This document shows positions 3,584 through 64,000 of a stretch of DNA of 64,000 nt, piece after piece. The position numbers were made by a program, and so were the translations under genes. The notes under the pieces are model-generated. The model was not told the DNA's origin, made no database searches, and saw only the letters and a program-made list of their open reading frames with translations. The stretch lies in the NCBI RefSeq assembly GCF_002933345.1, contig NZ_PDKR01000002.1, positions 1 through 64,000 on the forward strand. The letters are read 5' to 3'. The stretch is from Candidatus Pantoea edessiphila (GTDB lineage Bacteria; Pseudomonadota; Gammaproteobacteria; Enterobacterales; Enterobacteriaceae). The stretch's first letter is position 1, and every line of letters begins with the position of its first letter.

Positions 3584-4933
3584 ATGACTCAAAAACTGAT
3601 CGTAGCAAAATTTGGAGGTACTAGCGTTGCTGATTTTAATGCAATGAGCCATAGTGCTGATATAATTATTAATAATTCTAATATACGTCTAGTAGTTTTA
3701 TCTGCTTCTGCTAGGATAACCAATATTCTTGTATCCCTTTCTGAAGGTAAAGATAAAAGTAATAGACTTTATTTAATTAATAAGATTAGTAATATTCAGA
3801 ATTCAATTATCTATAAAATTAAAGAAAATAATTCTTTAAAAATATTAATAAATAATATGATAGGATCTATTGAAATATTAGCTGAAAAAGCTTACAGAAT
3901 TAATTCTGAATCGTTAAAAGATGAAATAGTAAGTTATGGTGAATTAATGTCTAGTATTATTTTTGTTAATATTTTACGTGAAAGAAGAATGAATGTTGAG
4001 TGGTTTGATGTTCGAAATGTAATGAAAACAAATGATAATTTTGGTTGCGCTCAACCAGATATTAATACATTATCTAATCTAGTTAATAAATATCTTAAAC
4101 CACTTATAATACATAAAATTGTAGTTACTCAAGGTTTTATTGGTAGTGAAATTCAAGGACGAACTACTACTTTAGGTCGTGGTGGCAGTGATTATACAGC
4201 TGCTTTATTAGGTGAAGCATTGAGAGCAACACGAATAGATATTTGGACAGATGTATCTGGAATTTATACCACTGATCCACATCTAGTAGCAACAGCTAAA
4301 AGAATAGATGAAATAACTTTTAAAGAAGCTGCAGAAATGGCAATTTTTGGAGCAAAAGTGTTACATCCGTCTACTTTGTTACCTGCAGCAAGAAGTAATA
4401 TCCCAGTATTTGTTAGTTCTAGTAAAAATCCAGAAAAAGGAGGCACATATGTTTGCAATAAAACTGATACCACACCTTTATTTAGAGCTTTAGCTTTACG
4501 TCGTAGACAAACTTTATTAAATCTAAGGAGCTTAAATATTTTTCATCAACTAGATTTTCTAGCTAGAATAACTAACACATTATCAAATCATGGGATATAT
4601 ATTGACCTTTTAACTAGTTCTGAAGTAAACGTAGCAATAACATTTAATGATAGTTATCAATCAAGAGGAATTAATATTATTAATAATAAATTATTATGTG
4701 AACTTTCATCTTTTTGCCATGTTAATATAGAAGATAATTTATCTCTTATTGCTATTATTGGTAATAATTTATCTAAAGCTAATGGTATATGCAAAATGAT
4801 ATTTGGAATGTTAGAACCATTTAATTTGCGGATGATTTACTATGGTATCAGTAATTACAATATATGTTTTATAGTATCAAATATAGATTCAGAAAATATC
4901 ATTCGTATTTTGCATCATAATTTATTTGAATAA
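3584..4933 (+). CDS. lysC: Lysine-type aspartokinase III
   Basis: Phosphorylates aspartate, the entry step to lysine, threonine and methionine. The start is the ATG preceded by GAGGT; it gives 449 residues, the exact E. coli length, and removes an unconserved upstream extension. Catalytic landmarks remain: KFGGTS near the N terminus, Glu120 in SYGE, Arg199 and Asp203 in LGRGGSDYTA, Lys258 in FGAKVLHP. The C-terminal ACT region is altered at lysine-control sites: Ile319 and Asp324 replace E. coli M318 and G323, and Tyr339 and Ser345 replace S338 and T344. A Gly-to-Arg change (Arg44 in SASARITN) lies close to the active site. With the ThrA kinase domain degraded, this is probably the only working aspartokinase encoded in the window. 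Confidence 0.96.
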   Translation: MTQKLIVAKFGGTSVADFNAMSHSADIIINNSNIRLVVLSASARITNILVSLSEGKDKSNRLYLINKISNIQNSIIYKIKENNSLKILINNMIGSIEILAEKAYRINSESLKDEIVSYGELMSSIIFVNILRERRMNVEWFDVRNVMKTNDNFGCAQPDINTLSNLVNKYLKPLIIHKIVVTQGFIGSEIQGRTTTLGRGGSDYTAALLGEALRATRIDIWTDVSGIYTTDPHLVATAKRIDEITFKEAAEMAIFGAKVLHPSTLLPAARSNIPVFVSSSKNPEKGGTYVCNKTDTTPLFRALALRRRQTLLNLRSLNIFHQLDFLARITNTLSNHGIYIDLLTSSEVNVAITFNDSYQSRGINIINNKLLCELSSFCHVNIEDNLSLIAIIGNNLSKANGICKMIFGMLEPFNLRMIYYGISNYNICFIVSNIDSENIIRILHHNLFE

Positions 4934-60533: not shown

Positions 60534-61100
60534 ATTATAAGTTAATAATTGATATTATAAAAATTTTTAATAATTAAATTTAACATTAAAAGTAAAAAAA
60601 CAAAAATTTATTAATATAATTTCGATAAAATAGATTTATTTTTAATATGTTTTTAATGATTTTATTAAATAAAAACTTAAGATTTAATATAATTTAATCA
60701 CTACTTTAATTAACAACTATTCTGCTAACAATGCTTATATAAATTTTTTATATAATATTCTTAAAAGATAAATTAGTTTATTTATATTTTTTATATAATT
60801 ACATATGATCTATATTCAAAATTTAGTCATTAATTTTTTATCCCGATAGGGGAGAATGCATGTAAGTTGAATGATATTTAAAATATTATTTAATACGGAC
60901 ATTTACTTGGTAAATCATATATTAATTCTTTTAGTTGCATAAAATTTTTGTAACTAAAGATTATAATAAATATCATATACTTAAATTAAGTTTTAAACAT
61001 CTTGCTAACACCTTAATTATTGGCATCGCTGTTATTATACATAGTGATATGAGCTGATATAAATAAAAAAAGAAAACATCACCTATCTGAAGTATAAATT
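60534..61100. other. slt-thrA gap, no thrL leader recognised
   Basis: AT-rich. There is no gene, and no Thr/Ile-rich leader peptide like thrL is visible in any frame. TTAGTTGCA (60931-60939) and TGTAACTAA (60949-60957) can form a nine-base stem with one G-T pair. A short CCCGATAGGGG hairpin lies near 60842-60852. Neither is followed by a T tract. Confidence 0.5.
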
Positions 61101-61119
61101 TCTTAACTTTTTGTTAAGA
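61101..61119 (+). promoter_or_regulatory. Small hairpin beside the thrA ribosome-binding site
   Basis: TCTTAAC (61101-61107) and GTTAAGA (61113-61119) form a seven-base stem with a T5 loop, ending four bases before the AGGAG of thrA. It is far weaker than the E. coli thr attenuator and has no T tract. It could modulate ribosome access, or be chance in AT-rich sequence. Confidence 0.35.
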
Positions 61120-61137
61120 TTCAGGAGATTTTACATC

Positions 61138-63585
61138 ATGCGAGTGCTAAAATTTGGTGGAACATCAATGGGTAATGCGAAACTTTTAATTCGTGTAGCC
61201 GAAATTTTAGAAGATAGCGCACAAAAAGGACAAGTTATTGCTGTATTATCTTCTCCAACTAAAATTACAACTTATTTGTTGGAAATAATTAAAACCAGAC
61301 TTAGTAATCAAGATAATTTATTAAGTATTAAGGATGCAGAATATATTTTTTCTAGCTTATTATTAGACTTGGTTGATATTCAACCAAAATTAAATTTTGG
61401 TTATCTAAAAAGTTTTATAGGACTAGAACTTAATAAAATAAAAAAGATGCTATATGGAGTAAAATTATTAAAACAATGTCCAGATAATATACAAGCCTCT
61501 ATTACATGTATTGGTGGAAAAATTTCAGTTGTTATTCTAGGAGAAATATTGAAGGTACGTAATAATCACACAAGTATAATAAATCCTGTAGAGAAAATCC
61601 TTGCTTTTGGAAGTTATTTAAATTCTACAATTGATATCATTGAATCTTCTAATCGTATTAAACTTAATAAAATTCCAGAAAAAAATATTATACTTGTAGC
61701 AGGTGCTATAGCTGGAAATGAACGTGGTGAAACAGTATTATTAGGAAACAAAGGTTCAGACTATTCAGCAGCGTTTTTAGCAGCATGTTTTAAAGCAGAT
61801 CGTTGTGAAATATGGACCGATGCAGATGGTTTATATATTTGTGATTTAAATCAAGTTCCTAATGCAAATATATTAAGATCAATATCTTATAATGAAATTA
61901 TAGAATTAATTTATTTGGGTGCTAATATTCTTAATATTAAGACTATCAATGTTCTTACTCGTTTTCAAATTCCGTGTTTAATTAAAAATATTACTAATCC
62001 TATATCAGAAGGGACTGTTATCAGCAATAAAATTGATCGCGATAAAAGTTTAATTAAAGGTATTGTTGATTTGAATAACGTAGTGATGTTAAACATTTCT
62101 GGCTCAAAATTAAAAAATGTAGCTGGTATGTTATCACATATAATAAACAGTCTTTCAAAATCTGGTATTTTTATATTTTCATTTATGGTTCATTACCAGG
62201 AAACTAATATTAGTTTTTGTGTATTAGAAAGTGACCTAAAATTTATTCAACAAACTCTTAAAAAAGAATTAAAATTCGAACTGCAAAATAAGTTACTTAA
62301 TCCTATTATAACAACTAAAAATCTAACGATGATTTCAGTGATAGGTAATGGTATATGCAGTGTTAAAGGGTTATGTAACAAAGTACTTTCACCATTGACA
62401 CGTGCCAATATTGATATTATATCAGTTTTACTGAATTCGTCTGGAAACTCAATTTCAATTATTTTGAAGAAAAATAAAGTTACAAATTTAATTAAACTAA
62501 TATACCGATCATTATTTATTAATAATAAGATAATTGAGCTATTCATAATTGGAATTGGAGGAGTAGGAAATGCTTTATTGAAGCAAATAGCTCAGCAACA
62601 AAAATACTTAAAGCAAGAAAAAAATATAAAAATATGTGTTTGTGGAATAGCTAACTCTCAACAGATTCTAATTAATTTAGAAGGGATTGATTTAAATAAT
62701 TGGAGATTAGATTTTTCAAAAACTAATAAAATATTTGATACTAATCACTTAATATCTTTAATTAATCAAAATCATATGCTAAATCCAGTTATTGTAGACT
62801 GCACTGCTAGTGAAGAAATTGCTAATAAATATATAAATTTTTTATCAAACGGTTTTCATATAGTAACATCAAATAAAAAAGCTAATACTTCTTCTTGGGA
62901 TTACTATAAAAAAATACGTAATATTACTAATAATTCTAACTGTAAATTTCTGTATGAAACTAATGTAGGAGCAGGTCTTCCAGTAATTGAAAATCTAAAA
63001 AATTTATTAAATAGCGGGGATGAATTGATAAAATTTTCTGGAATTTTATCGGGTTCCCTTTCTTTTATTTTTGGTAAATTAGATGAAGGCTTTTCTATAT
63101 CAGAGGCAACTAGTATGGCACGTAAAATGGGTTATACAGAGCCAAATCCTATAGAAGACCTTAGTGGTATGGATGTAGCTCGCAAATTACTAATTATAGC
63201 TCGAGAATTAGGATATAAATTAGAGTTAGAAGATATAAATATTGAACCATTATTACCAAATGATATTGATCATATTAATGATATTGACAATTTTATGAAA
63301 TATTTATCATCATTTAATGAATTATTTAAAAATAGAGTATCTAAAGCTCATACTTGTAATAAAGTCTTAAGATTTGTTGGTACTATTGAAAAAGGAGGTA
63401 TATGTAAAGTGAAAATTGATGAAGTGGGGGAAAATAATCCACTTTATAAAATTAAAAATGGTGAAAATGCATTAGCATTTTATAGTCGTTATTATCAGCC
63501 AATTCCATTGGTTTTACGAGGATACGGAGCTGGTAATGATGTAACAGCGGCTGGAGTTTTTGCTGATTTACTTCGTACTTTATAA
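61138..63585 (+). CDS. thrA: Aspartokinase I-homoserine dehydrogenase I, kinase domain degraded
   Basis: In E. coli ThrA catalyses steps one and three of threonine synthesis. The ATG giving MRVLKFGGTS, after AGGAG, is the conserved start; it gives 815 residues (E. coli 820). Numbering is identical to E. coli through the kinase. There E127, R204, K263, H266 and P267 are replaced by Gly, Asn, Asn, Asn and Ile, and DPR at 236-238 by DLN, while Lys5 and Asp208 remain. Kinase activity is therefore doubtful. In the ACT region S345 is Phe, Q432-G433 are Leu-Asn and SSSE at 352-355 is HYQE. The homoserine dehydrogenase half is intact: GIGGVGNALL, SNKKANTSS, TNVGAGLPVIENL, SGILSGSLSFIFGKLDEG and DLSGMDVARKLL. 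thrB follows 26 bp later. Confidence 0.95.
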   Translation: MRVLKFGGTSMGNAKLLIRVAEILEDSAQKGQVIAVLSSPTKITTYLLEIIKTRLSNQDNLLSIKDAEYIFSSLLLDLVDIQPKLNFGYLKSFIGLELNKIKKMLYGVKLLKQCPDNIQASITCIGGKISVVILGEILKVRNNHTSIINPVEKILAFGSYLNSTIDIIESSNRIKLNKIPEKNIILVAGAIAGNERGETVLLGNKGSDYSAAFLAACFKADRCEIWTDADGLYICDLNQVPNANILRSISYNEIIELIYLGANILNIKTINVLTRFQIPCLIKNITNPISEGTVISNKIDRDKSLIKGIVDLNNVVMLNISGSKLKNVAGMLSHIINSLSKSGIFIFSFMVHYQETNISFCVLESDLKFIQQTLKKELKFELQNKLLNPIITTKNLTMISVIGNGICSVKGLCNKVLSPLTRANIDIISVLLNSSGNSISIILKKNKVTNLIKLIYRSLFINNKIIELFIIGIGGVGNALLKQIAQQQKYLKQEKNIKICVCGIANSQQILINLEGIDLNNWRLDFSKTNKIFDTNHLISLINQNHMLNPVIVDCTASEEIANKYINFLSNGFHIVTSNKKANTSSWDYYKKIRNITNNSNCKFLYETNVGAGLPVIENLKNLLNSGDELIKFSGILSGSLSFIFGKLDEGFSISEATSMARKMGYTEPNPIEDLSGMDVARKLLIIARELGYKLELEDINIEPLLPNDIDHINDIDNFMKYLSSFNELFKNRVSKAHTCNKVLRFVGTIEKGGICKVKIDEVGENNPLYKIKNGENALAFYSRYYQPIPLVLRGYGAGNDVTAAGVFADLLRTL

Positions 63586-63611: not shown

Positions 63612-64000
63612 ATGGTAAAAATTTATGCGCCGGCATCTATTGGTAATGTTAATGTAGGATTTGATGTATTAGGTGCAGCACTTGCACCCATAGATGGTTC
63701 ATTATTAGGTGATTATGTTACCATTAAATCTTCTGATCACTTTAAATTAGTTAATGCTGGCATGTTTGCAAATAAGTTACCCACCATTGTAGAAAATAAT
63801 ATTATCTATCAATGCTGGAAGCATTTTTGCTTAAAAATTAATAAAATCATACCTGTCAGCATAATTTTAGAAAAAAATATGCCAATAGGATCAGGTTTAG
63901 GATCTAGCGCTTGTTCTATAGTAGCTGGTTTAGTAGCAATGAACGAATTTTGTGGTCAGATTCTTAGTAAGAATGAATTATTAATATTAATGGGCAATTT
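63612..64000 (+). CDS. thrB: Homoserine kinase (partial, runs off the window)
   Basis: A GHMP-family kinase that phosphorylates homoserine for threonine synthase. The visible 129 residues start [23 protein letters not shown], as in E. coli ThrB, and include the ATP-binding [21 protein letters not shown]. The reading frame is open to the window end. It lies 26 bp after thrA in the usual thrABC order; thrC is expected just beyond. Confidence 0.97.

Follow-up and report, generated by a model that had tools for sequence, protein, structure and literature searches.

The thrA locus and the aspartate pathway

Close to the end of the window (the whole stretch of 64,000 nucleotides of Candidatus Pantoea edessiphila DNA that was analysed) lies thrA, an open frame of 815 amino acids on the forward strand (61138..63585) whose product is predicted here to be a homoserine dehydrogenase with a pseudokinase N-terminal half. 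The protein matches the Pfam domains AA_kinase, ACT, NAD_binding_3 and Homoserine_dh and scores 1013.9 bits against the NCBIfam model NF006959 (cut-off 726), and both its orthology and its domain order of kinase, ACT and dehydrogenase are those of ThrA of the E. coli type. The kinase half occupies residues 1-290 (61138..62007), the ACT regulatory region residues 291-460 (62008..62517), and the homoserine dehydrogenase half residues 462-815 (62521..63582), all on the forward strand. The start of thrB follows on the same strand as an open frame at 63612..64000 that extends beyond the window, and the downstream order in the contig, assigned by eye from open frames, is thrB, thrC, dnaK, dnaJ. An open frame of 99 codons runs antisense to thrA (62247-62546, reverse strand), and nothing marks it as a gene.

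The only Homoserine_dh match in this 836 kb genome, whose completeness is rated at 99.3%, is thrA. A second aspartokinase is encoded in the window by lysC (3584..4933, forward strand; 620.3 bits against NCBIfam NF006570, cut-off 455), with an ACT region at 4463..4930 on the same strand, the boundary being approximate. A metA-like frame at 385-1317 scores 457 bits, under the NCBIfam cut-off of 495, and elsewhere in the genome there are dapA and a match to the Asd family (aspartate-semialdehyde dehydrogenase). The pathway from aspartate appears to have been kept, and it requires an aspartokinase as well as the dehydrogenase half of ThrA. The single activity predicted for the window ThrA is that of a monofunctional homoserine dehydrogenase such as yeast Hom6 (PDB 1ebf, 1q7g), to which residues 462-813 match; unlike Hom6, the window protein retains a full-length kinase and an ACT region. 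An AlphaFold2 model of the window ThrA, computed with 14 named ThrA sequences, had a mean pLDDT of 61 and a pTM of 0.37, and parts of the conserved dehydrogenase also fell below 50.

Loss of the aspartate pocket from the kinase half

The original prediction for this locus was that the aspartokinase half of ThrA has lost its active site while the dehydrogenase half is intact. Its use of E. coli residue numbers was justified, for in an alignment to K-12 ThrA (NC_000913) the numbering is identical through residue 269, and each substitution that it named is present: E127G (61516..61518), R204N (61747..61749), P237L and R238N, which turn DPR into DLN (61846..61851), K263N (61924..61926), and H266N and P267I (61933..61938), again on the forward strand. 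When the site residues of E. coli LysC were mapped onto ThrA, two losses emerged that were absent from the first list, namely A39S (61252..61254, forward strand), equivalent to LysC Ala40, and F190A (61705..61707, forward strand), equivalent to LysC Phe184, an aspartate contact. Residues 127 and 204 correspond to Glu119 and Arg198 of LysC, which, according to PMC5481828, bind the amino group and the carboxylate of aspartate, respectively. PMC3195717 names Arg198 and Ser201 for aspartate, and Thr221 and Arg232 for ATP.

How far these residues vary in nature was judged from a control of 108 ThrA sequences, consisting of the best 80 named loci, 27 relatives and E. coli, with rows L027 and L035 left out where the longest-frame rule had chosen the wrong frame. 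E127, R204, D208, P237, H266 and P267 are invariant in all 108, and residue 39 is likewise Ala in 108 of 108 other ThrA, while F190 is Phe in 156 of 156 ThrA of the intact class. Position 263 is Lys in 102 of the controls, Ser in 5 and Arg in 1, and in symbionts that lack LysC (see below) it may be N, D, T, E, Q, H or others; position 238 is Arg in 100 controls, Asn in 4, Lys in 3 and Gln in 1. Because both vary in ThrA proteins with otherwise intact sites, K263 and R238 were dropped from the argument. The list of lost active-site residues in the original prediction thus stands for E127, R204, P237 and H266, and fails for K263 and R238, which are not diagnostic. P267 is also variable in some of the LysC-lacking symbionts, with H266 kept in 52 of 52.

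The decisive changes are E127G, F190A and R204N, which remove the aspartate contacts: the three aspartate-binding residues of the ThrA type are Gly, Ala and Asn in the window protein, and its aspartate pocket, as judged from these residues, is largely emptied. Aspartokinase activity has presumably been lost with it. Still present are KFGGTS (5-10), which includes K5, and S38, T44, S207-D208, T227-D228 and Y233, and the retention of K5, S38, T44, S207, D208, T227, D228 and Y233 means that nucleotide binding or weak activity is possible. The intact KFGGTS, S207-D208 and T227-D228 could even be taken as a sign that the site is tolerant and that the kinase half continues to work as an aspartokinase, but E127, F190 and R204, each of them invariant in the controls, are all lost here, and D208 is lost too in four sister species, which makes such an enzyme highly improbable.

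The LysC encoded in the same window retains E119, F184, R198, S201, D202, T221, D222, Y227 and K257, along with V115. The earlier statement that LysC keeps all of the equivalent residues is correct for E119, R198 and K257, but not for R232, the equivalent of ThrA R238, which is His.

Pocket loss within the genus

Six genomes represent the genus, and five of them have lost the pocket. The four congeners that share it encode proteins with 63-68% identity to the window protein and have open frames throughout, and the chance that the changes reflect an error of sequencing or assembly is accordingly negligible. The sixth congener, G003, has K263R and D230N but an otherwise intact site. Phylogenetic analysis of the dehydrogenase half separates the five species from all others with a support of 100, and the placement of G003 is not robust. 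Three shifts from the conserved state are fixed in the kinase half of all five species (F17L, A39S and E127G), and across the clade residue 190 has become Ala or Ser and residue 204 Asn or Thr. The four sister species have also lost D208 (to Asn or Glu), and the kinase half of one of them, G002, carries in-frame deletions of 4 and 7 residues.

The substitutions at residue 127 raise another reading, in which the pocket now binds some other metabolite, malate for example, as a substrate or a regulatory signal. PMC5481828 reports malate kcat/Km values up to 200-fold higher for E. coli LysC with E119G or E119S, and matching states occur as E127G here and as E127S in a genome from another lineage (G163; see below); furthermore, two of the three shifts fixed in the kinase half (A39S and E127G) lie in the pocket. 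However, R204 is lost as well, and its LysC equivalent binds the alpha-carboxylate, while D208 and further residues are gone from the sister species, not always in the same manner. A change of ligand is very unlikely on this evidence.

Whether the changes are concentrated in the site depends on the comparison made. Among conserved positions of the kinase half, 4 of 11 site positions (taken from papers) are changed in all five species, versus 3 of 48 other positions (Fisher 0.018). Taken by itself, the window species gives 4 of 11 versus 8 of 48 (p 0.21), and counting a position whenever any of the five species has a change there gives 6 of 11 versus 21 of 48.

Selection on the two halves of ThrA

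The dehydrogenase half was assessed at 44 positions with a conservation of 97% or more among intact ThrA, and all 44 are unchanged in each of the five species. A comparison of dN/dS between the ThrA halves had been proposed with the original prediction. In the five species, the codon-model omega was 0.130 over the kinase half, 0.072 over the dehydrogenase half and 0.228 over the fast-evolving ACT region. For LysC of the same genomes, the values were 0.082 in the kinase domain and 0.152 in the ACT region. The ratio of kinase to dehydrogenase omega was tried as a mark specific to the clade and rejected, since its value of 1.79 lies within the range of the eight usable intact groups (1.06, 1.17, 1.20, 1.25, 1.31, 1.33, 1.55 and 1.97). 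Omega values at the bound of 1.0 were not used in these comparisons (AK and ACT of group g113; ACT of groups g117 and g77), and some of the groups, with long trees, are near synonymous saturation.

A fixed tree assigns to the stem of the clade about 0.51 substitutions per site for the kinase half and 0.16 for the dehydrogenase half, as a difference of totals. Within the clade the ratio of kinase to dehydrogenase rates is 1.50, and the 68 tips with enough change have a median of 1.17 with quartiles of 0.89-1.47. This pattern suggests that change was rapid as the site was lost and that constraint then persisted at a level near that of intact enzymes. The kinase half is still under purifying selection, which goes beyond preservation of the frame. 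Multi-domain enzymes are known to include pseudoenzyme domains, in which the fold is kept and catalytic or substrate residues are lost. The kinase half of the window ThrA resembles such domains in that residues of its substrate pocket have been lost, and the rest of the domain shows the purifying selection expected of a pseudokinase.

A less demanding view is that the kinase half has no role at all and is passively carried along, frame-preserving changes being tolerated in front of a needed dehydrogenase and the remaining constraint reflecting only foldability. The in-frame deletions in G002 fit with passive carriage, as do the further site residues lost in sister species (D208 in four of the five) and the broad loss in a more distant genome, G152, described below. 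The kinase-half omega of 0.130 in the five species and the rate ratio of 1.50, near that of intact tips, speak against it, however, and we consider it a minority possibility, though one to be taken seriously.

Altered kinase sites in other lineages and their association with LysC

ThrA was also examined in 58 further genomes of the family, hand-picked as small or medium genomes with a strong match; the survey left out 14 small genomes with weak matches only, family genomes beyond the 295 drawn, and G322. Three more lineages with altered kinase sites were found, clearly in G163 and G152 and less so in G124. The ThrA of G163 has E127S, F190L and R204S, and its neighbours on the tree are large-genome relatives whose sites are intact. 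That of G152 has lost most of KFGGTS as well as T44, F190, D228 and Y233, with E127, R204 and D208 kept; 25 of its 59 conserved kinase positions are changed, and its ratio of kinase to dehydrogenase rates (3.29) is the highest of any tip. In G124, the changes are E127Q, F190L, P237L and R238D, with R204 and D208 kept, and this kinase may be only weakened. The three genomes occupy separate positions on the tree, several deep branches of which are weakly supported. F190 is lost in all eight ThrA proteins with altered sites. The 44 conserved dehydrogenase positions are all unchanged in G124 and G163, and G152 shows one change among them (L696M). Enrichment of changes in the site has a p value of 0.018 in G163, 0.31 in G124 and 0.33 in G152, and the evidence that change was targeted to the site is confined to what the five species share and to G163, while G152 looks more like broad decay.

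A search for LysC in 69 genomes found it in 10, namely the six congeners, G018, G124, G163 and G152. The ThrA kinase site is altered in eight of these ten, the exceptions being G003 and G018, and conversely all eight genomes with an altered site retain LysC. All 10 LysC proteins keep the catalytic residues with the exception of R232, replaced by His or Lys in some of them. Of the 59 genomes that lack LysC, 52 (25 genera) have a full-length ThrA, and E127, F190, R204, D208, D228, P237 and H266 are kept in every one of the 52; the other seven, with a truncated or broken ThrA, were excluded from this count (G010, G184, G271, G151, G253, G108 and G147). Altered sites are thus seen in 8 of 10 LysC-bearing versus 0 of 52 LysC-lacking genomes (Fisher p = 1.3e-8, kinship ignored), or, by genus, in 4 of 5 versus 0 of 25 (p = 1.8e-4, with the window's genus counted as affected and kinship again ignored). 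Without G124, the LysC-bearing counts become 7 of 10 genomes and 3 of 5 genera. LysC is not sufficient for loss, because G003, G018 and large-genome relatives keep the ThrA site. The original prediction included neither the similar losses in three other lineages nor the association with LysC.

PMC1885841 reports that Buchnera, Blochmannia floridanus and Wigglesworthia are without lysC and metL. The presence of lysC in the window genome, together with a search that found no urease alpha match, argues against membership of Blochmannia. The window genome and the 52 LysC-lacking symbionts are alike as small genomes that settle the same redundancy of aspartokinases, but the outcome is opposite, in that the latter keep the ThrA kinase site in the absence of LysC.

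Feedback control of the pathway

In the ACT region of the window LysC, the positions associated with the lysine site or with lysine insensitivity are altered (M318I, G323D and T344S), with F324, S345 and E346 kept. According to PMC10464499, M318I, G323D and T352I yield lysine-insensitive E. coli LysC; T352I is found in the LysC of G002 and G004. M318, G323 and T344 differ from E. coli in all six LysC proteins of the genus (with a gap at 318 in G002) and are kept in G018, G124, G163 and G152. The idea of a deregulated LysC as a general precondition for loss of the ThrA kinase site was rejected, since M318, G323, F324, T344, S345 and E346 are all kept in the LysC of G124, G163 and G152. The lysine site of DapA, which we take to consist of S48, A49, H53, H56, N80, E84 and Y106, is kept at all seven residues in the five clade members, and the DapA of G003 differs at 49 and 53. 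The altered LysC site together with the kept DapA site suggests that lysine control may have moved to lysine's own branch. This fits with a genus in which the shared first step would no longer be shut down by lysine, although the ACT regions evolve fast and their alignment is less certain.

The threonine site of ThrA is altered as well. At Q351 and Q432, whose counterparts in the plant enzyme bind threonine, the window protein has His and Leu, and at S345 it has Phe (62170-62172), with Leu at 345 in the four sister species. S345F has been used in E. coli ThrA against threonine inhibition, according to PMC4654888, and some of the LysC and ThrA substitutions correspond to alleles of feedback-resistant laboratory strains. 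Erosion of the threonine site was rejected as a special feature of the clade, since LysC-lacking symbionts with intact kinase sites have often lost the same glutamines (Q351 is kept in 36 of 52 and Q432 in 29 of 52). The Rfam threonine leader, which precedes thrA in E. coli and also occurs at the G163 locus, was found neither upstream of thrA in the window (60534-61137) nor at the thrA loci of five congeners, and a lysine riboswitch was found in none of the lysC loci searched, in a search run with no positive control. Overall, the window ThrA is like E. coli ThrA (NF006959) in length, domain order, place before thrB, dehydrogenase half and an identity of 53% over the protein, and unlike it in the apparent absence of the kinase aspartate pocket, the altered threonine-site residues and the leader not found in the window.

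These changes could be drawn together in a regulatory reading. The kinase half would then be a ligand-sensing pseudokinase, its pocket re-shaped early (A39S and E127G being fixed) so as to refuse aspartate and still to influence the dehydrogenase, and the pathway would have been re-wired, with lysine control taken off LysC and kept at DapA and threonine control weakened on ThrA. We regard this combination as improbable.

A probable dehydrogenase carrying a pseudokinase

The best explanation, with a probability of roughly 80%, is that the window ThrA is a working homoserine dehydrogenase carrying a pseudokinase as its N-terminal half, a state that would have arisen after LysC made the ThrA kinase redundant. 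The pocket would have been lost in an ancestor of the five affected species (A39S, E127G, F190A/S and R204N/T, with P237 and H266). LysC of the same genomes would provide aspartyl phosphate to all branches, leaving the ThrA kinase redundant and unmaintained, and this redundancy would be the cause of the loss of the kinase site. The fused dehydrogenase, the only one of the genome, could not be dropped, and the gene would have been kept on its account. Moderate purifying selection still acts on the kinase half, presumably because it serves the dehydrogenase as a scaffold and because translation reaches it first.

The original prediction of a bifunctional enzyme turning into a plain dehydrogenase agrees with the loss of the kinase substrate contacts, with the absence of change at conserved dehydrogenase positions (0 of 44), with the catalytic residues kept in LysC and with the occurrence of the loss in five species. 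It also held that the kinase part stays in frame for folding or oligomerisation. Such a role is plausible, and the dead half may be needed as a scaffold, may act as a regulatory relay or may simply be carried along. Because it precedes the dehydrogenase on one polypeptide, the frame must survive anyway, and in E. coli ThrA a dehydrogenase fragment released by proteolysis retains activity in the absence of the kinase half.

A search of a limited body of open-access full text, judged mainly from abstracts, turned up no earlier account of a naturally occurring ThrA whose kinase half is dead. The NCBIfam equivalog NF006959 names a bifunctional enzyme, and for proteins such as this one, in which kinase activity is probably absent, that name would bring a false reaction into metabolic models. 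The repeated losses also form a natural set of cases in which to ask why a domain of some 290 residues persists without its activity. Two opposite solutions to the redundancy of ThrA and LysC are seen across the family: LysC absent with the ThrA site kept (52 genomes, 25 genera), or LysC kept with the fusion half losing its site (four lineages).

Other ThrA rearrangements were encountered in the same survey. A mirror image of the window protein occurs in three genomes of one genus, G271, G184 and G010 (L166, L167 and L168), where a ThrA of about 300 amino acids consists of the aspartokinase only and a full-length ThrA match is absent. In G151 and G253 (L169 and L197) and in G147 and G108 (L160 and L165), ThrA is without its dehydrogenase half or contains internal stops.
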